This document shows, piece after piece, positions 1,207-62,705 of a stretch of 64,000 nucleotides of DNA; the first letter of the stretch is position 1, and the number at the start of each line of letters is the position of its first letter. The position numbers and the translations under genes are program-made. The stretch is from positions 97,180,001 through 97,244,000 of the forward strand of contig NC_091117.1 of the NCBI RefSeq assembly GCF_040183065.1, in the 5' to 3' direction. The notes beneath the pieces are model-generated. The model had not been told where the DNA came from, ran no database searches, and saw only the letters and a list, made by a program, of their open reading frames with translations. Origin of the DNA: Periplaneta americana. Taxonomy: Eukaryota; Arthropoda; Insecta; Blattodea; Blattidae.

Positions 1207-2932
1207 ATGCCGAAAAATATAAGTGCAAAATCTACATTGATCCGGCAATGGCTAACAGAATATTCAGAATTCACTTATGATGGAAAAATAATATTCTGCA
1301 AGATTTGTAGCAAACAGGTATGTAACAATAGTTGAAATATATAAATTCTATTAATTTTAATGAGTAGGCCTATAATATTTATACATTGACTGAGGTATAA
1401 TTCTTTTTAAGACCACTACACTTTAACCTTTTAAATTCCGATAGTTAAAGTATTTGCAGGTCATTAAAATTTTGATTGTTCGAACCCACTAACTTTGTGA
1501 TAGAAATACGGCAATACAACAATTAGGATTTTATTTTAATTCAGTATACTTTACATTTTTAGATTTCGCAAGAAAAGAAGTGCCACCTAAAGCAGCATGT
1601 GCAAGGAGCGGCTCATAAGGCTAAAGCTCAGCAGAAAAATCAACTGCAACAAACTTTACTAACACAGCCCACTTCATCCAATCTCAGCAGCAATTTCTAT
1701 GCTGATTTAACCAGAGCGTTTGTTGCTGCTAACATTCCCTGGAATGCAATTGAAAATCCGGTTTTAAGACAGTTTTTACAAAAATACTGCAAACAAAATA
1801 TCCCATCTGAGTCGACCTAAGAAAAAATTACTTAGACAGAATATACAATGAAACTTTAGCTTCCATTCGGGAGGATATAGGTGATTCTTACATATGGGTC
1901 TCTGTGGATGAAACCTCAGATCTTATGAATAGGTATATAGCAAATATGGTAGTAGGAAAACTTAGTCCTGATGGACCTTCGATTCCACACCTCGTATGTG
2001 TTAAGGAACTTTCGAAAGTGAATAGCCAAGCCATTGCTTATTTTGTAAATAAAGGCCTACAGTCTTTATACTCAGGTAATATAGACGATTCTAAAGTTCT
2101 GTTGTTTTGTACTGAAGCTGCCTCATACATGGTTGCTGCAGCTCCACTTCTTAAAACATTTTATCCTAACCTCACGCATGTAACCTGTCTAGCACATGGC
2201 CTTCACAGGGTTTCTGAAACAATCCGGAATGAATTTCCTCTTGTCAATTCGTTTATTTCCAACACAAAAAAATGTTTTTGTAAAGCCCCATCCAGGATTT
2301 CAATATTCAGAGAGAACTTTCCAGATATCCCACTCCCACCTCAGCCGGTTGTTACACGATGGGGAACCTGGATTCAGTCAGTGGTTTATTATTCTAAGTA
2401 TTTTAAAGAAGTGGTCACAGTTTTTGACAAATTACCTGAAACTGATAGTGCAGCGTGTGTGAAAGCAGTGAAAGATTGTCTGAATGACTCACGAGTGAAA
2501 AACGATATTGCCTACATAACATCAAACTTTTCTTTCATACCTGCAAGCATTGAACAATTAGAACGTGAAAACCAATCTCTTTGTAGCCAAATAGCAATAG
2601 TAAAGGAAGTTCAAGTGAACATACATTCTGCTTTGGGCGAAACTGGGAAAAAAGTTAAAAATAAGTGGGACAACGTATTAAATAAGAATGTAGGATTTTC
2701 ATTGTTGGAAAAAGTATCAAGAGTGATATCGGGGGAAAGTGTAAATGTTCCAGTAAGTATTGATGTTTCTATTGTACCTAATTTAAAATTTGCGCCTCTC
2801 ACATCAGTTTCGGTTGAAAGAAGTTTTTCTGCTTTCAAAATGATTCTCAGTGACAAAAGGCAAAGGTTAACTGTGGAGAATTTAGAAAAAATTCTGGTGG
2901 TGTACTGTGCAGATAATTATAATAAAGTCTGA
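1207..2932 (+). pseudogene. hAT transposase (BED finger, RNase-H-like core, dimerisation tail), frameshifted
   Basis: Exon 1 is 1207-1317 (37 codons, MPKNISAKSTLIRQWL...) and ends KIICSKQ-like with donor GTATGT. The acceptor AG at 1561-1562 opens exon 2 at 1563 in phase 0. Across the junction CKIC...HLKQH gives a BED-type C2H2 finger like that of CGGBP1-like hATs. After about codon 122 one base is missing (near 1818): the frame moves from IPSEST to LRKNYLDRIY and then runs open to the stop at 2930-2932. The core shows VSVDETSD (first acidic residue), CLAHGLHR, TRWGTW and the dimerisation motif SVERSFSAFK. At the second acidic site I read TEAASYM where the family has DAASYM. About 490 residues once the frame is followed. 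Cut-and-paste transposition in the nucleus is the family role; this copy should be inactive. Confidence 0.88.
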
Positions 2933-3267
2933 GCATGGAACTGAATTTCAATAACTTAAAATGAGTAATCTTGATATCAATAATCATTATTTCATTAGTT
3001 TCAATATATTAAATTTGTGCAGCTCTGTTTATAAATATAATATAGTATTCTTTTTTAATGTTTAAACATACTTTTTTGTGCGTATTTTAGTGTATAACTA
3101 AAAATTTCAGTGAAAGAAATAAGTATGATACCTTGATGTGCCTAAAATGCCTATTTTCATTAAAATAGAGCCTAATTTTACAAATTTTGAGCTTATTTTA
3201 GGCGCCTAAAACTGCAATTTTTAGTGCCTAAAAATCCGATGTCTAGTAATTATACATCTTATCTTAA

Positions 3268-4287
3268 GGGGTTAGGTACAGCTTACAGCAGTAAAATTTT
3301 TGGAAATATTCAACATTATTTTCCTCCATTACTGTATCTTGTACAATAATGAAAATTGATATGTATAAAACACTATCCTTCTGCTATATGAAAAAAAAAT
3401 TACGATTTAAAAAAAAATTATTCATATACAGGTCTATATTTTTTTTTTTCAAAATTCATAATGGTGGTAGTACACTGTGCAGTGATGAAGCGTTTCCCTC
3501 ATAACTCATAAACTTGTTAACTTTTTCATGTTCTCTCTCTCTTATTCTATTGCTAAAACTCATGTTTACTACATCATGCTCTTTCAACTACATTCCTTAA
3601 TAAATAACAGGCTATATATATATTTTAATTTTGTGTTAAAAGAAAATACTGATATTTGACCATTTTCAAATGAATTAATTTTTTTTATCAGACAATCTAT
3701 CAAAGGTAGAGAAGTGATTTTTTATTTTTTTTTTATTTTAGGTTATTTTACGACGCTTTATCAACATCTTAGGTTACTTAGCGTCTGAATGAGATGGTGA
3801 TAATGCCGGTGAAATGAGTCCGGAGTTCAGCAACGAAAGTTACCCAGCATTTGCTCGAATTGGGTTGAGAGAAAACCCCGGAAAAAACCTCAACCAGGTA
3901 ACTTGCCCCGACTGGGAATCGAACCCGGGCCACCTGGTTTCGCGGCCAGACGCGCAAGCCGTTACTCCACAGGTGTGGACTAGAGAAGTGATCTTGCACC
4001 ATATTGTAGATATGACATGCATAAATAGACACAAAAAAATTTAATCACAATATGTTGGATAGTTTTTTAGTTATGTGGGAAACGCTTCATCACTGCACAG
4101 TGAACTGAATTTTGAAAAAAAAAATGTAAATATATATATATTTTTTAATCGTAAAAGTATTTTTTTCGTACAGCAGAAGGACAGTGTTTTACACATACTA
4201 ATTTTGATTATTGTACAAGGTACAGTAATGGAGGAAAAAAATGTTGAATATTTCCAAATTTTACTGCTGTAAGCTGTACCTAACCCC
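3268..4287. mobile_element. Non-autonomous DNA element with ~220-bp inverted repeats (MITE/foldback type)
   Basis: The left arm (3268 to about 3505) and right arm (about 4075-4287) are reverse complements with roughly 85-90% identity by eye. Each starts GGGGTTAGGTACAGCTTACA or its complement, and each inner end reads like GTGATGAAGCGTTTCCC. No coding capacity is seen. A SINE (3719-3980) sits in the middle. The target duplication is unclear: the left flank is CTTAA and the right flank ATAAG, so the superfamily is undetermined. Confidence 0.8.
3719..3980 (-). mobile_element. tRNA-derived SINE, family A, copy 1
   Basis: On the minus strand the head is tRNA-like, with an A-box-like region and a clear B box (GGGTTCGATTCCCAG). 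It is followed by a body with TTACCTGGTTGAGG and a 3' tail reading CGTCGTAAAATAACC before an A-rich end. A 12-bp target duplication TAGAGAAGTGAT flanks it at 3707-3718 and 3981-3992. It is inserted in the central part of the inverted-repeat MITE. The same family recurs at 15572 and, degraded, near 40535. Confidence 0.9.
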
Positions 4288-4642
4288 ATAAGCCTGCTCA
4301 TGGATATAGACCTAATTATTATGATCAAAATGCAAGACAAGCAACCAGTGCGACCCACAGTGGGACGGATTGCGATTCTAGCCGGAACAAATCTAATATT
4401 GATCAATTCCTTTCGAATCGATGAAAATAGCAAAATGAAGGTAAATTATTATGACATTTGATGAAATATTAGTATGATAATTATTATTTTAGTATAGAAT
4501 GCTTATTTATTAAAAAAGAATCATACAGTAATAAGAATTGCATACAACTAATCCAAATAAAAAATTAAAGTAAACAGAAGTTATTTTGCAGACTACTATG
4601 AAGAGAAAAGTAATATATTATATAGTAAATTTTATGATTCGT

Positions 4643-5609
4643 TTAGAAATCTGAAGCGTCTGTTGTATCTCCAGAAGTGTTGGATACGCTAGCGCTACTG
4701 TCGTCCTCATCTTGGGGTTGCAGTTGAGCAATGCTGTTGTTGGCATTCGCAGCTGGTACTTGTAGTAGTTTATTACCTAAAATTACACTTTTGATTTTCT
4801 TGGATTTGGATGTCGATTGATCTGAGATATTATGGGATCAGAAGATACTGACAACATGTGTAGGACATCTAAGTTTCTCTCACGAGGACACTTCCTAGCG
4901 TGATCTAACCTGTACTTTTGTAAATGTTTCTGTCTTGCCTCTTGTGCATCTTCAGATAACATCCCAATAGGAAGTATCGCAGTTTCTGCAATTTTTCCTT
5001 CATGTATCAGTATTTTATGCACGCTGGATGGCATGTAGTACTGTACCATGGATATAACTATTGTACATATAAATGGGCTGTATCATTGGTGTACTTCTCA
5101 AACGCCTCAATATACTGTATACTGAATATCCACATGAAATGGTGCATAAAATCACAGAAAATCTGTGAATGAGGTCTTACTAATGCCCGTAATATTGGCT
5201 GTAATTTGTGGGTTTTCAAAAAAACCGGCGTGCTATATTGCCATCATTTGATGTCCCAGGGCCACCAGATTTCGGTTTGTCAATAAGATCTAATTGAGAG
5301 CGAAATCTAGAAATAATTTCTCGTTTTCTAGCTTAAAAAATATCTTTGTTGTCGCCTCCATTCTGCTAAGAACAATGTCTTTTTAAGAAAATAATCATTT
5401 TTACGGTGACACTGCAGCCAACGTCTGTTAAAATTACTTTGAATATTTTTCAAAATATTATGAATGCACTTCTCACTATTAGAATCACATGTTTCAATAT
5501 ATAATTTGTTCAAAACATATCTATATAGTTCATCTAATTCGCCACTTTTATTGGCAAGTATTGGAAATAGATCACGGCGCGAAATCGCAGGTAGCGGTTT
5601 CGAGTCTGA
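4643..5609 (-). pseudogene. Transib/RAG1-like transposase, C-terminal exon, broken
   Basis: An acceptor-like TTTTTCAG precedes DSKPLPAISRRDLFPILA at about 5609. The frame then reads through NKLYIETCDSN and KREIISRFRSQLDLID to SNDGNIARRFF near 5205, followed by stops. A second block (5049 down to 4783) reads MPSSVHKILIHEGKI, LPIGMLSEDAQEARQ and HARKCPRE. These blocks match by eye the RAG1 C-terminal order NGNFARK ... HKTLAH ... ASEGNESGNK ... NARQ, the area that carries the third catalytic acidic residue. A frameshift near 4822 leads into KIKSVILGNKLLQVP and a Ser/Asp-rich tail ending at 4643. The first two catalytic aspartates lie upstream and were not found. This copy is non-functional. Confidence 0.78.
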
Positions 5610-5840
5610 AAAATATTAACCACATGCAGAGCGGTCAGTAGGAGCAAATGAAACTAGGTTAGTCTTAAAGTGCACACTTAAACCTACATTCTGACTTAAA
5701 AATAAATGTGACTCTGTGTGACTCTCCTATTATAAGTCAACGTTTATTTTGACTATTACACTCTTACTACGTCATACTACTTTTGACCAATAAAACGGTA
5801 CGAAAGGACGTATTTCAACCAATCATGGCTGCTTATCGCA

Positions 5841-5896
5841 CAATTTTATCGCGTCCCTAGCATTTGTTTAATTTTATCGCGTCCCTAGCATTTGTT
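5841..5896. repeat. Short tandem duplication (~27 bp x2) inside the Transib element
   Basis: The string TTTTATCGCGTCCCTAGCAT with its neighbours occurs twice back to back. It lies between the retained exon and the longer 158-bp duplication. Confidence 0.85.
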
Positions 5897-6100
5897 TCTT
5901 TGTTTGCCAATATTTGAAACTGCGCTGGTCTGGACGTCAAAAAAAATATATATATATACATAAAATTACAAACCACTCCAGTCGATGCACAGCAGTTTCA
6001 AATATTACTCGCATTGGCATTCAAGAACAAGAATTAATAAAAATCACTGATCATACCTATGCATTTTCTGAAATCCTATTTACAAATAAATGAAGAGCAC

Positions 6101-6414
6101 CATTCGGAAATCCTGAATAAGTTGAATACACCATGTAGGCTTAAATCAACGAGTTCCACTTCTATTACGTACACGTCCAATATAACATCAATTGAACCAC
6201 CAACCACATTCAAATTTCAAAAATTGTACATTCAATAATTATTCCTTTTAAAATTATTCATTCGGAAATCCTGAATAAGTTGAATACACCATGTAGGCCT
6301 AAATCGAGTTCCACTTCTATTACGCACACGTCCAATATAACATCAATTGAACCACCAACCACATTCAAATTTGAAAATTGTACATTCAATAATTATTCCT
6401 TTTAAAATTATTCA
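6101..6414. repeat. 158-bp tandem duplication inside the Transib element
   Basis: Two adjacent copies start CATTCGGAAATCCTGAATAA at 6101 and 6259, a period of 158 bp. They differ by a few substitutions and a small indel (AAATCAACGAG versus AAATCGAG). No reading frame is conserved across them. This is a local duplication after or during element decay. Confidence 0.9.
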
Positions 6415-6876
6415 TGTTTATTTTTTATGTCATCGTCGTTAATAAAAACTTTTCTAACACTTGTGTATATTAGTTAGGTTATGTTATAGCTCTGCTATAT
6501 GATATTATGGATAGTCACGTATCAGAGATTGTTTAATATTAAGATTTATTGAAAATCATCTGTCAAGTGACGTTGATTACTGGGATTCGGATAATTGAAA
6601 TAGAATCCAACTGTTTTAATAATAAAAACGAAACTGAATCAACAAAGCCTTCTTTACTAGTAAAATTGCCATGTGTATAGATAGAGAAGTTATCGACGAT
6701 AAGGCATACTACTGCCATCTAGCATGCATCTAGCGTAATATTTGTAATGTTGAGATTGTACAATAATACATTTGAAGAAAGTTGTATTTTCGTAAGTTAA
6801 TTAATATTTTATTGTATTGGAGTACTTCGTTACTTCTAATCTTTATATACTCTCTTCTAATCGTGTAATAGTCAAT

Positions 6877-6933
6877 TAAATCCCACTCGAGTTTTGATTT
6901 TCTCTAGATAAATCAAAACGTCTAGTGTGATTA
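6877..6933. repeat. Small inverted repeat (~23-bp arms)
   Basis: TAAATCCCACTCGAGTTTTG on the left is matched by the reverse complement of CAAAACGTCTAGTGTGATTA on the right, with about 9 bp between and a few mismatches. It could be a tiny MITE or a structural motif. Confidence 0.5.
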
Positions 6934-7341
6934 CTGTTTATAAATAGTTAAAAAAAATCGCATTTCCCGCTCTTAAGTTAACATGCCGTTTCTAAATATT
7001 CAAAGTTATTATGAAAATAAAATGTATATAATAATTATCTACCAACCTTGTTCTTCATTTTCCATTTCAAAATCACAAAATGTTTCACTCCCAGATCACA
7101 GAAAACAAGCTTGCTTCTTACACTATTTCAGCGTGGCTGAGCAATAAAACTGGTTACCGAGGGGAATCCTCGTCAACATCATTGTGTGACGTCCAAATGT
7201 TTAGTGTCAAAGCTTCTTTCTCATAGATAAGCATTCTGTGATTCATTAGCAACAACTTGAGATAGGACACGCATAAAAATGAGAACATGTGAAAACTGAT
7301 TTTGTTCCGGCTAGAATCGCAATCCGTCCCACTGTGCGACC

Positions 7342-21922: not shown

Positions 21923-23260
21923 CAGTAGCGTGCAAATTAATTCAAACACGACATATTTTTACATTTTCTGTCATTGTTGGCCTCACAGCTGCTCATACTG
22001 CTTTAATTGACATCTGTAGTACCTGTAATTCCATTGTTGAAGGTCTGTCATTATTTTTTTTATAATATGTGACATTTTGCATGTCGTTTTGTACTTATAA
22101 GCATTTCAGTTGTGTTGAAGACTTAATACTGCAATCCTGTGTACGTTCTGTCATCTTCACAAATGGATACAACTCCACGAAAACGGTCTAAAATTATAAC
22201 ATTAGCAGAGCATTCTTCTATGACACAGAGGCAAATTGCTGCAGAATGTCACATCGGTTTGGCTACTGTTAATTCGATCACAAAACGATACAGGGAGACT
22301 GGATCCATCACACCCCAGAAAAAGGAAACTATGGCCGGAAAAGGAAGACTTCACCTGCAGATGATCGTTTAATTGTCAGGAAAAGTAAATTAAATCCTAA
22401 CTGCTGTCGACTTAACCCGCGAGTTAATGGCTACCACTGGGGCGAATATTCAAGTCACAACAGTGCGGCATAGCCTTTTGGAAGCTGGACGAAGGGCTCG
22501 TAAGCCTATTAAGAAGCAACTGCTAACCCCTGTTATGTGCAAAAAACGCTTAATGTGGGCAAAATTACATCAACACTGGACAGTGAATGACTGGAAGAAT
22601 GTACTTTTTTCCGATGAGTCTCATTTCGAGGTCAACGGCCACCGTGTTTCTTACGTACGGAAACGATCCGAAAAAGTAACAGCAGCTCATCTCCAACAAG
22701 CACCCAAATACCCCCCTAAAGTAATGTTTTGGGGTTGTTTTACACATGAAGGGCCTGGAGCATTAATACCTATCAAGGGAATGATGAATTCTGACAAATA
22801 TATTCACTTATTGGAAACCAGAATCGTATCCCAGCTGCAAAAATCATTTCCGGATGGCAGAGGTGTGTTCCAACAAGACCTGGCACCATGCCATACGTCT
22901 CGAAAAACTACAGAATTCTTCAACAAGAAGAATATTCAGGTACTCCCCTGGCCAGGCAACTCACCCGACACCAACCCCATTGAGAACTTGTGGTCAATAT
23001 GCAAATGAAGAATGCAAAAAATGGATTGTTCTACAAAGGAGAAGATGATTTCTGCCCTCATTGGTGTATGGTTTCGTGATGAAGAAATGAAGAATATTTG
23101 TGGGAAATTAGTGGAATCCATGCCAAATCGTCTCAGAGCTGTTATTAGGAACAAGGGAGGCCACATAGATTACTGAGGTATGTCTTAGATCCTATTTTTA
23201 TCCCGTTTGAGTGTTTTTGCATAAGTAATTACGTTGTTCGGATTAATTTGCATGCTACTG
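21923..23260 (+). mobile_element. Tc1 element, full length (1338 bp)
   Basis: TA flanks at 21921-21922 and 23261-23262. The terminal repeats read CAGTAGCGTGCAAATTAATT on the left and CAGTAGCATGCAAATTAATC as the complement of the right. It encodes a nearly complete DD34E transposase (22163-23176) on the plus strand. It landed inside the uncharacterised transposon gene. Confidence 0.95.
22163..23176 (+). pseudogene. Tc1 transposase (DD34E), one in-frame stop plus two compensating frameshifts
   Basis: The N-terminus MDTTPRKRSKIITLAEHSSM leads into a paired-like helix-turn-helix (MTQRQIAAECHIGLATVNSI). Between about 22330 and 22410 the frame is lost and regained, consistent with two compensating indels. 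From 22427 the frame carries all three catalytic acids: VLFSDESHFEV, FQQDLAPCHT and SPDTNPIENLW, with 34 residues between the second Asp and the Glu. A TGA at 23006-23008 replaces the Arg expected in ICK-R-MQKM, and the same frame then reads on to GGHIDY and the stop at 23174-23176. A young, only lightly damaged copy. Confidence 0.93.
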
Positions 23261-35790: not shown

Positions 35791-37297
35791 TTGGGTGGAT
35801 GAGACGAAATGCCACTGTTTAACCGAAAGTCTAGCTGCCCCTGCATGCTATAGGAGTTGTCTTCCTACTGTCTAAGCGCGATAGTAATATGCGGTACGAT
35901 AAAAACATAAAAGCTTACCTCATTCTTGTAAATGCTGGAAATGGTGGCCGCCTGCATTCAAACAAGCTTCATATCTTTTGATCACATTTCCTGACATTTA
36001 TTGAAGTTCATTTTCACTAATCTTCCGCATTTCTTGTTGGATATTTTCCTTAAGTTCATTCAAGATGCGAGGCTTGTTTCTGTATGTTACACTCTTTAAT
36101 GTCCTCCACAAACAAAAATCACAAGGATTTAGATCGGGGGACCTGGAGAGCCACAAACCATGACTCACAATGTGATCACAGAAAACATTAGAGATTGCTT
36201 GCATTGGAATATGTGCAGTATGTGCCGTCGCATTGTCCTGAACAAAGTATGCATATTCTTTTTTCTTATCTGTGAGCTCCGTGAAGACAGGCTGCAGAAT
36301 CAGTTGCACATAAAGTTCAGAATTTATAGTGTCCTCAAAGGAGAAAGGCCCTATTATTCTCCTTCCTGATATGGCACACCACATACCTATCTTTTCATCA
36401 TGTAGCGGCAATTCTAAGCTGTTATGGGGATTTTCAATGCTCCAACATCTATTGTTCTGACTATTTACATAACCACTGAGGCGAAACCATCCCTCATCAC
36501 TGAAAAAAACCAACGTGGGGTCTACTAAGCCATCATGGACTGATTGAAGGTACCAATTACAAAAATGAATCCTAGCTGCGTCATCAGGGGCCAAAAGCTG
36601 ATGCACTACATGGGTTTTGTGTAGTTTTAACTTTAATAGTTTAGTGGCGAGTTGAACAAATGTTTTAGACACCCCTACTTGTGCTGAACAGCGCCAAGAT
36701 TTGTGAGGGCTTTGCTCTAACTGAAAATCTATTTCGTCCAATTTCTCCTCTGTTAATACATGTTTATTCAAATGAGGCTTCTTATTTTGTACAGATCCTG
36801 TTTCTGAATTTCATTACTAGTTGGTATATTATTGTTTTATCCAACATAGGGGAATTGGGAAATTGATGTCGGAACTTACAGTGACACTTTCTCCACGAAG
36901 ACTTTTTCGCGAAAATATTACAAATAAAAGTGCGATGTTCTGTACTGTACCTCATGAAACAATTTACACACTCGACACTCAGCACAAAACTGAAAACTGC
37001 TTTCTGCAATATTTTGTTGCATGGGATCTGGTAGTCCAGAATATTCTCTCGATTATTGCACATGGCTGAGTAAATTGGCGTACTCATTACTGTGCACAAG
37101 AACAGTTAAAAAAAAAAAAATTATGAATTATGCTAGATTTCTGTTAATCATTCAGTTAGACCTTGCAAACTAATTCATATGTACTTTTGCACAGGATCTA
37201 GTCCGAGAATAGCAGGACCATAAACCTGGGAGCAGGCAGTGGCACTTCTGTGGCTAGTTTTCTGCAGCTTTGGTGGCATTTCATCTTGTACACCCGG
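35791..37297 (-). mobile_element. mariner-like element, full length (1507 bp)
   Basis: TA flanks at 35789-35790 and 37298-37299. The ends read TTGGGTGGATGAGACGAAAT on the left and CCGGGTGTACAAGATGAAAT as the complement of the right, and both continue GCCAC. The minus strand encodes a nearly complete transposase (about 37060 to 35908). Confidence 0.88.
35908..37060 (-). pseudogene. mariner-like DDxD transposase, one frameshift and one late stop
   Basis: The N-terminal DNA-binding part (37000 to 36785) reads TEHRTFICNIF and KFRHQFPNSPMLDKTIIYQL. A 1-nt loss near 36800 shifts it to GSVQNKKPHLNKHVL, after which the frame is open to 35998. The catalytic residues are FFSDEGWFRLSGYVNSQN, YFVQDNATAHTA and SRSPDLNPCDFCLWRTL. 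I count 38 residues between the second and third Asp, longer than the 34 of classical mariner, so it belongs to one of the maT-like or longer-spacer groups. A TAA after NELQ interrupts the C-terminus, which would continue MSGNVIKRYEACLNAGGHH. Lightly damaged. Confidence 0.87.
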
Positions 37298-41509: not shown

Positions 41510-42420
41510 AAAGTGGAATAAACTTTGGACACAGGAAGATGTATTTACATTTTTACCTGTACGATGATTTTTTACTCTCTGCAACTGGAAAGAAAAAGAA
41601 CAGTATTTGCTGGTGAAATTGAATCAATAGGTATAGCACTTCACCAGCTAAATGTTCTATATCAGAAATTTCAGAAGTCTGTAATATTCACAGATTCTAA
41701 AGCTGCAATTTAGTCAGTCTGCTGAGTTAGAACTCCAATTTTGACAAGAATGCCACAAAGAAAAGACGAATAATCAGTGAATACCAGGACAGTGTAGGTT
41801 ACATGGCAATGAGAAGGCTAACACAGTGGCCAAAAAAAGGTGCCACAATAATCTTAGCAACTGAGAGGGAGTATTGTACCATTTCTTTAATCTTCATATT
41901 GCCAAAGTATATGACAGTAGACACAATGCAAGTGAACTATAAAGAAGCCATGGAAGAATTTATTAAACATTCCTGTGGGATCAAGAAAAAAGACAATTGC
42001 AGCATTTCATTAGTCTACTGAACATAACTGTTAAAACATGTGCTGACTGAACATCTACACTGAGTCATATTTGTTATTATTAGTCTGACCCAACAATTTG
42101 GGTTTACCTTGAGGCACAGAATAGCTCACAATAAAATTTAATATGAAAAATTATATGAACAGGTTTCAAACAAGATAAAGCCGTAACAGAAGAGACCTAG
42201 TACAATTTAAATTGAGTGTACTTCATAAAGATGCTGATGAAATATCGTTATGGAAAATTTTATTATAGTGGTAATGATGACATCTTGAGGTTATATCTTC
42301 AGCTTGTACTTTTCCCTCCACTTTACAAAGGTTTTTGGAATGGTGCCTCTCGCTCCAAAGAAGAGACTGTGACTGTTTTAATGTTGTACTTGACTAATAA
42401 GAACGGAATGAGGGGCTCGT
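41510..42420 (+). pseudogene. LINE RNase H-domain relic
   Basis: At 41585-41712 the plus strand reads TVFAGEIESIGIALHQLNVL and SVIFTDSKAAI, the E and D motifs of a LINE RNase H domain (FxAE..AI, IxTDSxAAL). Downstream the frame is broken, but fragments like RDLVQFKLSVLHKDADEIS at about 42190-42240 resemble LINE C-termini. It could be related to the fragment at 53221-53699. Confidence 0.6.
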
Positions 42421-43393
42421 AGATTTTCTCTTTCACTTTGTTTACTTCAAATGCTTGAGTGAATTTTCAAATCTGATCATAGGAACAGTTATTATGGCTG
42501 TTTGTTTATTTCTGTTTATAGCTATGATATCTAGGGGTAACATTAGTAGCAAAAGAATAGTTAGACATGGGATAGACTTTGTGGGAGTACAGGAGGTTAG
42601 GTTAGATAGGAATCTCATATCACAAATAAAAGCTTACTTGTATTATGAGGAAGGAAACAATAATCACCAATTAGGAACAGGATTCTTTATCCATAAAAGA
42701 ATAAAATCAGCAGTAAACAAGGTCGAATTTATCAGTGACAGATTATCGTATTTAATACTTAAGGATAGATGGTGTGATATCGTAGTTATATATGCTCACA
42801 CACCTAGAGAGAAAGACGATCATATAAAGGATAGCTTCTATAGGAACTTTGGTCAGTTATCTAGATATCACATGAACATTTTATTGGGGGATTTCAATGC
42901 TAAAGTATGACAGGAGGATATTTTTAAACGGACTATTGGAAAAGAGAGCCTACACATAACTAGTAATGATAATGGAGTTAGGTTAGTCAGCTTTGCCACA
43001 TCAGAAAATTTAATTGTCAAAAGTACAACATACCCCCATAAGGATATACATAAATGTACTTTGACTTCTCCAGATGAATTGACAACCAGATAGATCACAT
43101 CTTGATAGATAAATGAAGACATACTAGTATAGTAGAACTTTCAGAGGGGCAGATAGTAATTCTGACCATTATTTGGTAATTGGAGAATTAAGAGAAAGAC
43201 TATCAGTAGTGAAGCAAGTAGAGCAACAAGTTAATATTAGGAGATTCAATATTCCGAAATTGAAGGACGAGGAAACTAAGCAACATTATCAGATCGAAAT
43301 TTCAAATAGGTTTGTTTCTTTAGAAAGTTGCGGCGCAGTTCAGGAAGAATTAGATGTTAATAGCATTTGGGAAAATATCAGATAATATCAAAA

Positions 43394-54879: not shown

Positions 54880-57800
54880 AGATTTGGTACATGGAACGTA
54901 ACTAGTCTTTATAGAACAGGAGGGGTAACATTAGTAGCAAAACAACTAGCTAGATATAGAATAGACTTCGTGGGAGTACAAGAGGTTAGGTTAGATGGGA
55001 ATGGCATATCACAAATAGGTGATTACTTATTGTATTATGGGGAAGGAAACGATAATCACCAATAATTAGGAACAGAATTCTTTATACATAAAAGAATAAA
55101 ATCAGCAGTAAAAAAGGTCGGATGTATCAGTGATAGGCTATCGAATTTAGTACTTAAGGGTAGATGGTGCGATATCGTAGTTATAAATGCTCACGCCCCT
55201 ACAGAAGAGAAAGACGACCATATAAAGGATAGCTTCTATGAGGAATTGGAACACACTTTTGATCAGTTACCTAGATATCACATGAAAGTTTTATTGGGGG
55301 ATTTCAATGCTAAAGTAGGACGGGAGGATATTTTTAAACCAACAATTCGAAAAGAGAGCCTACACGTAAGTAGTAATGACAATGGAGTTAGGTTAGTCAA
55401 CTTTGCCACATCAAAAAGTTTAATTGTCAAGAGTACAACATTCCCCCATAAGGATATACATAAATATACGTGGACTTCTCCAGACGGAATGACACATAAC
55501 CAGATAGATCACATCTTGATAGATAAAAGAAGGCACACTAGTATAGTAGACATTCGAACTTTCAGGGGGGCAGACTGTAATTCTGACCATTATTTGGTAA
55601 TTGGAGAATTAAGAGAAAGACTATCAGTAGCCAAGCGAGTAGAGCAACAAGCTAATATTAGTAGATTCAATATTCTGAAATTAAAGGACGAGGAAACTAA
55701 GCAACGTTATCAGGTTGAAATTTCAAATAGGTTTGCTGCTTTAGCAACTGCTGATGCAGCTGAGGAAGAGTTATATGTTAATAGCATGTGGGACAATATC
55801 CGAGATAATATCAAAATTGCAGCTGAGCAGAGCATAGGTTATTATGGAACTAAGAAAAAGAAACTGTGGCTTGATGAAGATTGTTCGATTGTAGTAGATA
55901 GAAGGAAACAGGCAAAACTGAAATTCTTACAGGATCCAATTGTGGAGAATAGAGATAATTATTTCAATGAAAGGTGGGAAGCAAGTCATACACTTAGGAA
56001 TAAAAAGAGAGATTACTTGAAGGAAAAACTGAATGAGGTAGAAACAAATGAAGGGTACACGGGAAAAACGATCAAGGTCCATCAAAAATCTAAATTGAGT
56101 TAATAATGCTATCTTATAGTGTTAAGGAAGTACTATCATGTGGTCTAGCTAGTAATAAGAAATCATCGTTCTTGACATTCCACTACTTCAATTTTTATTG
56201 AATACACACATAACAAAGTATTAAGTGCTTAAACTTTAAAATTCGTTTTTCTCGAAACTTTCTAAAATGGACCTTGATCGTTATTCCCGTGTACCCTTCA
56301 AATAGTAAGAATAAAAACATTCGAGATTTATATAAGGGTATAAAGGAATTTAAAAACAGGCAAGGGTAAACGTGATCAGGGATGAGAATGGTGACTTGCT
56401 TGCAGACTCTCATTCAATCCTGAACAGATGGAAAAATTATTTTGGGCATCTACTAAATATACATAGGCCAAATAGAAATGATTGGGACGAAATTCAAATA
56501 CAAACTGCTGAGCCATTTATACCGGAATCCACATTTTCCGAAGTCGAAATTGCGATAGAAAATCTGAAAAAGTACAAGTCTCCAGGTATTGATCAAATTC
56601 CAGCAGAATTAATACAAGAGGGTAGAAGGGCATTATCTAGCGAAATTTATAAACTTGTACTTGCAATTTGGGAAAAGGAAATTGTACCAGAACAATGGAA
56701 GGAGTCCATAATCGTACCTATTTTTAAGAAGGGGGACAAGACTAACTGTAGTAACTTTCGAGGAATATCACTTTTGTTGACGTCGTACAAAATTTTGTCG
56801 AATATCCTTTTGAGAAGATTAACTCCATATGTAGATGAAATTATTGGGGATCATCAGTGTGGTTTTAGGTGTAATAGATCGACTATTGATCAGATTTTTT
56901 GTATTCGACAGATATTGGAGAAAAAATGGGAGTATAAGGGTACAGTACATCAGTTATTCATAGATTTCAAAAAAGGCGTATGACTCGGTTAAGAGAGAAG
57001 TTTTATATAATATTCTTATTGAATTTGGTATTCCCAAGAAACTAGTTCAATTAATTAAAATGTGTCTTAGTGAAACTTACAGCAGAGTCCGTATAGGCCA
57101 GTTTCTATATGATGCTTTTCCAATTCACTGCGGGCTAAAGCAGGGAGATGCACTATCACCTTTACTTTTTAACTTCGCTCTAGAATAATATGCCATTAGG
57201 AAAGTTCAGGATAACAGGCAGGGTTTGGAATTGAACGGGTTACATCAGCTTCTTGTCTATGCAGATGATGTGAATATGTTAGGAGAAAAATCCACAAACG
57301 ATTAGGGAAAACACGGAAATTCTAGTTGAAGCAAGGAAAGCGATAGGGTTGGAAGTAAATCCCGAAAAAACTAAGTATATGATTATGTCTCGTGACCAGA
57401 ATATTCTACGAAATGGAACTATAAAAATTGAAGATTTATCCTTCGAAGAGGTGGAAAAATTCACATATCTTGGAGCAACAGTAACAAATATAAATGACCC
57501 TCAGGAGGAAATTAAACACAGAATAAATATGGGAAATGCCTGTTATTATTCGGTTGAGAAGCTTTTGTCATCTAGTCTTCTGTCAAAAAATCTGAAAGTT
57601 AGAATTTATAAAACAGTTATATTACCAGTTGTTCTGTATGGTTGTGAAACTTGGACTCTCACTTTGAGAGAGGAACATAGATTAAGGGTGTTTGAGAATA
57701 AGGTTCTTAGGAAAATATTTGGGGCTAAGAGGGATGAAGTTACAGGAGAATGGAGAAAGTTACACAACGCAGAGCTGCACGCATTGTATACTTCATCTGA

Positions 57801-58062
57801 CATAATTAGGAACATAAAATCCAGACGTTTGAGATGGGCAGGACATGTAGCATGTATGGGCGAATCCAAAAATGCATATAGAGTTAGTTGGGAGGCCAGA
57901 GGGAAAAAGACCTTTGGGGAGGCCGAGACGTAGGTGGGAAGATAATATTAAAATGGATTTGAGGGAGGTGGGATATGATGGTAGAGACTGGATTAATCTT
58001 GCTCAGGATAGGGACCAATGGCAGGCTTATGTGAGGGCGGCAATGAACCTCTGGGTTCCTTA
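54880..58062 (+). pseudogene. Endonuclease-reverse transcriptase ORF of LINE A
   Basis: Domains in order: apurinic-type endonuclease (54930-55800) with DFVGVQEVRLDGN, VLLGDFNAKVGRED, NQIDHILIDKRRH and GADCNSDHYLV. A basic linker (55860-56040) follows. Then comes RT (56520-57300) with KSPGIDQIPAELIQEG, IVPIFKKGDKTNCSNFRGIS, HQCGFRCNRSTID, LFIDFKK, LKQGDALSPLLFNFALE and an intact catalytic [11 protein letters not shown]. The C-terminal region (57349-58062) has YLGATVTN, VLYGCETWTLTLREEHRLRV and RPRRRWEDNIKMDL. At least five frame breaks are seen: stops near 55063, the MITE, an extra A near 56972, a TAA near 57186 and a shift near 57880. The ORF style is that of RTE-like LINEs whose copies are often mislabelled craniofacial development protein 2-like. 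Confidence 0.92.
56050..56299. mobile_element. 250-bp MITE with 32-bp inverted repeats inside LINE A
   Basis: The left end GAAGGGTACACGGGAAAAAC and the complement of the right end GAAGGGTACACGGGAATAAC match over 32 bp with one mismatch, ending ATCAAGGTCCA. The flanks are AAAT at 56046-56049 and 56300-56303. Removal restores the LINE reading (ETNSKNKNI). No coding capacity; the superfamily is unknown. Confidence 0.88.
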
Positions 58063-60225: not shown

Positions 60226-61549
60226 TTTATTTATTTATTTATTCTGGTGGAGTTAAGGCCATTAGGCCTTCTCTTCCACACCACCAGAATACAATACAAC
60301 TACAAGAAAAATTATACATCTATGCAATATTAATCTACAATAGTAACGAGTTACAGAATGAATATGACATAAAAAAAAACAACTGAACATACAAATACAA
60401 ATTGAAAATAATAAAAATTAGTCTAACATATTAAATGATGCAAAAAAGAAGAACAAACAAAAAGTGAAAACATATACAACAAATACAGACACAAAATAAT
60501 AATGTCACTCAGCATTATTGTTATTAATTGAGGGACAATAAGCTGTTCTAGTATCCTGGCACAAAGACAAGAGAAATGGTTAATCTAACAAAAGGAAATT
60601 ATTGCCAAAATACTAAAGATAAAAACTTCGGCATAAATCTAGCAACTTCTCAGAAACAGATTTCGTGAGATAAAACATACTTTTCTAACTTTTAAACTGT
60701 AACAGTGTCCGGGAATCCCTGACGTCACTAGGTAACGTATTCCAGAGGCGAGGCAATGATATATTATAGGAGGATGAGTATAGAGAAGTTCTATGACGAG
60801 GAATAGAAAGGAGAGATTGATGCTGATTTCGTGAAGTAGTTAGGAACTGAAAGCATGAAGACAAGTAATTTGGAGAAGAGTTATGTAAAATATTGTAATG
60901 AAAGTGAAAGAGCGTGTATGATTCTTCGTTCCTTTAGACGAACCCACAAGAGCAGCTCAAGAGACGATTTTACATGGTCAAATTTCCGAATATTACAGAC
61001 GAATCATATACATACATTATGAACACGTTGCAATCTCTCATTTAAGTTAGAACTTAAGTTTGTTAACAAGGAATCACAGTAATCGAGATGGGGCATCACA
61101 AGTGCCTGTATAAGATTCTTTTTTAATGGAAGTGGTAGAAAGTGTTTTACGTGCTTCAAAGGGTGGAGCAGTGACAATATTTTCTTGTATGTATGGGTAA
61201 CTTGAGTGTTCCAGTTAAGATCATTATCCATAAAGATTCCAAGATTTTTTACTGTTTTGCTGTATTCAATAATTGTACAATTAAGCATGATGCTAGGCAA
61301 ATTTTTGCAGTCTACAATACTAAGAGGCCAATTATGACCCATCACTATTGCCTGAGATTTCTCTGGGTTCAGCCTCAATCCAAATTTATAAGCCCACGTC
61401 AAAATTGAGTTCAAGTCTTCATTAAATCTTTTTATTGCGTCTATCATTTCATCAGGATGAAAATGGTTGTATATTTGTAAATCCTTGGCATACATATGAT
61501 GTCTACAATGTTTTATCATTTTAGTCAAGTCATTAACATATATAATAAA

Positions 61550-62705
61550 TAGACTTTGTTGAATTGCCACACGCAGCATGCAATCAGGTTGCCGATGTAC
61601 GGTAGTATAGAGGAGATGAGCGACCGCCCGGTCTCGTAGTATAAGCAGTTCATGTTAAGAGTTGTGACCGGTCCAAATAGATACAGTTGAGCAGCTACAG
61701 CTAATGTATACCTATGTAAGCACTTGTTTTTGCATTACTATGGTTGGAATAGTCAAAGCTTAACATTTGTTCAGTGCAGACAAGAATTCAATCAAACATA
61801 CCACAATGAGAGTTTTGCTGTTCCAAACAATTGCCCCAGAAATACCCTTACTCCGCAGCCAGTCTTGACCCATTGGAAAACGTGGTTGGATGCTGTTATT
61901 TATTATGCAGAATATTACGGCAAAATAATGGAGGTAATTGATGCATTGGATAGCACAGACAGTTCCGCTGTTGCAGCTGTAAAATCATTGCCTTCTGAAC
62001 AGCTATTGGAAGATATTCTGTTCATTGATTCTAATTTTAAAATCGTGTCCAAAAGCGTCACCCTGTTAGAATCGTCTAAACTACAACTCTCAGAAGCCCT
62101 TAATATAGTGTATAAAGTATCACAAACCGTTATCCAAAATAACAATTCACTAATTTCAGAAAAGGTGAAATGTGAGTTGAGAAACATTATTGCTAAAAAT
62201 TCTGCCTATTCACAACTTCATATTATAAATGATGTACTATCAGGTCGCGACAAGACGGCTGAAGTTCGTGTACTAAAAAGTAGTGAATTTCTGTTCTTCA
62301 AGTATGCACCCATTACATCGTGTGATGTTGAACGTACATTTTCCCAATATAAAAACTGTTTGAGTGACCATTGGAGAAGGTTCACTTTGCAGTCGCTCAA
62401 AATGTACGTAACTCTTCACTGCAATGCACATATTCAAGGATGATGTGAGTATATTACATTAAATTTTAAGAGTTAAAATATCTCACTACAAAATAATTGT
62501 GTATTTACATGTTTAGATATTTCCTACTTCAATGATCATTCATTATATTTCTTGAATGCAGGATAAAGGTTTTATTGTAACCACAGTATACTGCTCAGTG
62601 TTTACATCAGAGGCATACTTCATCCGTTGCACATCCCCTTCTCATACAGTCTATAACGCGTGCGTAGTAAACCTTACGATTCTCGTGGCAATTCCACGAA
62701 GTCTA
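61550..62705 (+). mobile_element. hAT element, internally deleted, inside LINE E
   Basis: The perfect 8-bp target duplication ATAATAAA lies at 61542-61549 and 62706-62713. The ends read TAGACTTTGTTGAATTGCCA on the left and TAGACTTCGTGGAATTGCCA as the complement of the right. Removing the element rejoins GPLLFII with YVNDL in the RT. Only the C-terminal half of a transposase remains inside. Confidence 0.94.
61724..62443 (+). pseudogene. hAT transposase, C-terminal half (open frame, 239 codons)
   Basis: The frame reads QPVLTHWKTWLDAVIYYAEY, LEDILFIDSNFKIVSKSVTL and ends with the dimerisation motif APITSCDVERTFSQYKNCLS. It parallels residues in the transposase at 1904-2932 (QPVVTRWGTWIQSVVYYSKY, APLTSVSVERSFSAFK), so both are CGGBP1-like-type hATs but from different families with different ends. 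The BED finger and the first two catalytic acids are deleted. The remaining frame is unbroken. Confidence 0.88.

Follow-up and report, generated by a model that had tools for sequence, protein, structure and literature searches.

Transib elements move by cut and paste and generate 5-bp target-site duplications (PMC7204232, PMC1852546). Hztransib of Helicoverpa zea (6pqn, 6pqr, 6pqu, 6pqx, 6pqy and 6pr5) is described in passages of PMC1852546 as an element of 3,518 bp with a deduced protein of 489 aa, terminal inverted repeats (TIRs) and a 5-bp GC-rich target-site duplication, GCTCG. The recombination signal sequence (RSS) of V(D)J recombination has the consensus CACAGTG followed, after a spacer of 12 or 23 bp, by the nonamer ACAAAAACC (PMC8289069). 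An RSS-like appearance is general to Transib ends because RAG1 and the Transib transposase share ancestry. The sections of PMC8355894 that treat Transib ends describe a heptamer and nonamer-like words with symmetric spacers of about 20-22 bp, and a few ends with 12/23 asymmetry, some of whose words are identical to the canonical RSS. Most Transib ends, those of Hztransib among them, are characterized in the relevant part of PMC8289069 as heptamer-like with little or no nonamer likeness.

The element analysed here occupies positions 4356-7336 (2,981 bp; one copy examined) of the window, the whole 64-kb stretch of DNA that was studied. It is best read as a Transib DNA transposon that has suffered an internal deletion and is non-autonomous, residing in the genome of an insect, probably a cockroach; a probability of about 0.93 is attached to this reading. 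The element has the same transposase family as Hztransib and likewise carries TIRs and a 5-bp GC-rich duplication, which is CGACC here. It differs in being a coreless copy and in having a long proposed first intron. Its relatives are also longer at the N-terminus than H. zea Transib; positions 1-183 of a profile built from ten full-length relatives are left uncovered by the 6pqn chain.

Termini, target-site duplication and surroundings

The left TIR lies at 4356-4391 on the plus strand and the right TIR at 7301-7336 on the minus strand. Both read CACAGTGGGACGGATTGCGATTCTAGCCGGAACAAA; they are identical at 36 of 36 positions, and mismatch begins at position 37. Each opens with CACAGTG (4356-4362 and 7330-7336), so that both ends show the CAC-starting repeat with an RSS-like heptamer that is characteristic of Transib. 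CGACC stands on either side of the element, at 4351-4355 and 7337-7341, and provides in this one copy the 5-bp duplication that is typical of the family. The first-pass annotation had reported ends that open with the exact consensus heptamer and a 5-bp duplication, and both observations are confirmed, the former as part of a perfect 36-bp repeat. With the base composition of the window, a match of 5 bp has a probability of 0.0015; for an inverted match of 36 bp the figure is about 4e-21 for each pair of places. The first 24 bases of the repeat occur twice in the window when up to 3 mismatches are allowed, against an expectation of 0 from 100 shuffles. The TIR, the duplication and the heptamer are far above chance expectation. 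An empty site assembled by joining 300 bases from each flank revealed no further full copy within the window, and an exact scan of viral contigs with the outermost 22 bases of the repeat gave 0 matches.

The Transib insertion adjoins older repeats. In its left flank, 232 bases (4061-4292) recur in inverted orientation at 3263-3514, about 0.8 kb away, with 82% identity. Pieces of several other kinds of mobile element are scattered through the window. LINE pieces with endonuclease and reverse transcriptase are found at 55066-57933 and 42401-42910, both on the plus strand; the frame at 55066-56103 matches several Periplaneta americana proteins at 82-90% identity across 51-83% of its length and shows lower identity to Cryptotermes and Blattella proteins, which points to a cockroach near Periplaneta as the probable source of the window. 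Two frames for Tc1/mariner-type transposases (DDE_3) lie at 22394-23008 (plus strand) and 35998-36810 (minus strand), the latter below the Pfam curated cut-off. A 373-aa open frame at 1811-2932 (plus strand) has DUF659 and a hAT dimerisation domain and is a piece of a hAT-like transposase. A 250-aa frame at 61691-62443 (plus strand) resembles it by eye and gave no match to Pfam at 1e-3; next to this frame, at 61004-61654 on the minus strand, is a reverse-transcriptase fragment that falls just below the Pfam cut-off.

The broken transposase gene and the time of its breakage

A decayed transposase is encoded on the minus strand of the element, and all coordinates in this and the next two paragraphs refer to that strand. 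About 80 residues are retained at the N-terminus and about 180 at the C-terminus. The N-terminal piece, exon 2 of the gene model given below, lies at 5380-5605 (SKPLPAISRRDLF...HRKNDYFLK). Full-length relatives align to its open frame (5605 to about 5380) with their N-terminus (RRDLF ... NFNRRWLQCHRKNDYFLKK), at identities of 39% of 71 residues for relative P0003 and 41% of 71 for P0004. Only 9 of the best 120 of 167 relatives match it (tblastn, E<=1e-3), so this piece has diverged. The C-terminal remnant extends over 4795-5332 (ARKREIIS to DPIISQ...) and corresponds to residues 289-459 of H. zea Transib. The two motifs that had been noticed earlier are present in the remnant, SNDGNIARRFF at 5219-5251 and LPIGMLSEDAQEARQ at 4930-4974. 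A probable, though weakly supported, acidic C-terminal tail follows at 4643-4762 and ends in a stop codon after DASDF; it is suggested by the reading frame and by the acidic tails that end P0018 and other relatives.

The two pieces meet at an internal-deletion junction (5333-5379) where about 390-410 residues of the relatives are absent; the first recognisable piece past the junction begins at 5332. Nine relatives match both pieces, which in their proteins lie 389-407 residues apart. Ten aligned full-length relatives place two invariant aspartates in the deleted stretch, those of KWGxDG (D278 of P0005) and of MVDGK (D394). The invariant glutamate of AQEAR (E605 of P0005) is kept, with its codon at 4939-4941. 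When the profile is compared with RAG1-type proteins, both aspartates align with the DG and MVD of ProtoRAG. The three acids are likely the catalytic triad, an assignment that we make partly on the numbering of RAG1, and two of the three would be lost here. The intact DDE triad of an autonomous Transib is absent, both conserved aspartates having been in the deletion. Past the junction the frame changes four times, at 5219, between 5182 and 5164, at 5120, and between 5061 and 5040; the number rises to five when the acidic tail, which has weak support, is included. This copy cannot encode a functional enzyme and could be mobilised only in trans.

A 1.7-kb stretch without Transib similarity separates the right TIR from the N-terminal piece. 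In the frame of the N-terminal piece itself, the interval from the upstream stop to the conserved SRRDLF contains no methionine. A short proposed exon 1 (7047-7065, MENEEQ) opens with the start codon at 7065; its splice donor at 7046 (AAG/GTTGGT, the slash marking the splice site) and an acceptor at 5606 (TTTTTCAG/A) would join it in frame to the N-terminal piece. The resulting 1,441-bp intron (5606-7046) probably accounts for the long non-coding stretch. Two tandem duplications are found within these limits, an imperfect one of 155-158 bp at 6101-6415 (95.7% identity) and a perfect one of 28 bp at 5842-5897.

In the proposed mechanism, a complete Transib transposase from elsewhere would bind the 36-bp ends and cut beside the CACAGTG heptamers, and the excised element would then insert at a staggered 5-bp target, which would give the CGACC duplication. 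Since the core is deleted, any move of this copy used an enzyme from another copy; a relative may have mobilised it in trans when its gene was already broken. The 72 TIR bases and 10 duplication bases contain 0 differences, which limits the divergence since insertion to at most about 3.7% per site, a loose bound.

A different history, in which a complete and autonomous Transib copy inserted here and lost its core and frame later, in place, is considered the less probable of the two. It agrees with the order of the intron and of the N- and C-terminal pieces, which is that of a full gene, and the deletion and frame changes carry no date of their own. It must, however, leave the TIRs (36/36) and the duplication (5/5) unchanged although the sequence they enclose shifts frame four times and carries a deletion of 1.2 kb. 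The contrast between unchanged ends and a gene that has lost its core and acquired four frame shifts in about 540 bp favours decay before the last jump. Some of the frame changes sit in homopolymers (TTTTTTT near 5219) where sequencing error is possible, and this argument is weaker to that extent. The evidence as it stands favours a gene that was broken before the last jump over one that decayed in place.

Resemblance of the ends to recombination signals

A-rich words had been described about 24 bp inward from each heptamer, and they are found after spacers of exactly that length: ACAAATCTA at the left end (4387-4395, plus strand) and ACAAAATCA at the right end (7297-7305, minus strand). Compared with the nonamer ACAAAAACC, the right and left words score 7/9 and 5/9 at spacing 24; the corresponding values are 6/9 and 5/9 at spacing 23, and 4/9 at both ends at spacing 12. 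The words straddle the inner edge of the repeat, their first five letters lying inside the 36 bp and their last four differing between the ends. When the best of spacings 22-24 is taken at 127,910 places of the window on both strands, at least 5/9 is reached in 17% and at least 7/9 in 0.7%. The window contains 12 copies of CACAGTG, two of which are the ends of this element; five of the 12 reach 5/9, and the only one that reaches 7/9 is the right end. Among all CAC[AT][AG]TG heptamers of the window, the right end alone has a word scoring 7/9 or better when spacings of 11-13 and 22-24 are scanned. The likeness to a nonamer is one-sided and weak; the right end is mildly notable and the left end is not.

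The element and the V(D)J system share an exact CACAGTG, an A-rich word 24 bp inward and a related RAG1 C-terminus. They differ in that the spacing is 24 at both ends, the consensus nonamer stands at neither 23 nor 12 bp, the ends are identical over 36 bp and form no 12/23 pair, and no RAG2 was seen among the three pieces of the element that were scanned. The ends could be regarded as a real 23-RSS-like signal, kept or evolved, that vertebrate RAG could use, and such a signal would be expressed in the exact heptamer at both ends and in the uncommon score of the right word. This is unlikely, however, given a left word of a kind found at about one background place in six, the equal spacing at the two ends, the poor 12-spaced word and the crossing of the conserved repeat's inner edge by the A-rich word; many such Transib ends, moreover, already appear in the published examples of PMC8355894. 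Somewhat more doubtful still is the narrower proposal that the end of intact members, with CACAGTG, a 24-bp spacer and a nonamer of the ACAAAATC type, would serve as a weak 23-RSS for vertebrate RAG1/RAG2. If it were true, this Transib family would be a living cross-recognised RAG substrate, and the full bipartite signal, beyond the heptamer, would predate RAG1 or have arisen more than once.

An unusually close match to the RSS is rejected in view of the weak, one-sided nonamer. The first-pass annotation had suggested that this family may be among the closer matches to an RSS, and that part of its interpretation is not borne out by the spacings and word scores of the single copy. Its identification of the element as Transib stands, as shown below; it made no mention of the loss of the catalytic core.

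Affinities of the transposase and meaning of the element

A joined read-through of the remnant matches H. zea Transib 6pqn, over the residues given above, with E 4.8e-40, and the C-terminal piece by itself does so with 8.9e-19. The read-through took about 5183-5121 in the wrong frame, which left about five unmatched residues and did not affect the result; the better frame at 5120-5164, judged by the relatives, is RFSVILCTISCGYSV. The ten-relative profile gives 1.2e-184 against 6pqn and about 1e-8 to 1e-6 against RAG1 chains. A protein search found 167 proteins at E<=1e-3 out of 648 candidates, and the best 120 of these are 249-732 aa long, the named examples being insect proteins. All of these 120 match the element by tblastn, with 255 of 255 matching stretches inside it and 0 elsewhere in the window. 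An earlier tblastn with 60 relatives of at least 600 aa gave 133 stretches. A query of only the 85 C-terminal residues returned 2 proteins, owing to the length rule of the search.

Transib proteins of Sipha flava, Gryllus longicercus, Diabrotica virgifera, Periplaneta americana and Monomorium pharaonis are about 38-55% identical to the retained C-terminal region and, where full length, have the same overall order as here. Those of 650-730 aa are full length or nearly so, whereas about 400 residues are deleted in this copy. The homology to known Transib transposases is evident in the 6pqn score, the relatives and the profile, and on these alignments the transposase belongs to Transib, with a C-terminus related to RAG1 as had been claimed. 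Pfam gave no significant family for three pieces of the remnant, the single match being a chance one at 0.17. Among six relatives, P0003 alone matches the RAG1 family (3e-4; 19.5 bits against a curated cut-off of 25), and the other five have no RAG1-family match. Pattern searches for relatives of the transposase found 18 stretches in viral contigs and 83 in prokaryote genome contigs, 0 of which were upheld by tblastn in either set; this is as expected, because the element is an insect one.

CAC-heptamer ends and 5-bp duplications are common to Transib and to RAG-like transposons of the RAGL or ProtoRAG type (PMC7204232), so the termini would suit such an element as well. The protein makes this assignment very improbable: amphioxus RAG1L (6b40) is matched by the same joined remnant with only E 0.23, far from being closer than H. 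zea Transib, and the Pfam scan of only three pieces of the element showed no RAG2-like piece. RAGL is rejected because the scores favour Transib. A CACTA/CMC or Chapaev element, which would share just the opening letters CAC and whose target duplications are 2-4 bp, is less credible again and is rejected on the 5-bp duplication and the Transib protein found here.

A literature search retrieved no paper that describes this element from a cockroach, which is a weak indication, as sequences seldom appear in running text. The element is ordinary for a Transib, a family already well known in insects. The inheritance of V(D)J signals from transposon ends has already been argued, with better-matching published examples, and this copy alone does not alter that argument. 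What the element adds is a single Transib copy of cockroach type whose ends and 5-bp duplication are clean.
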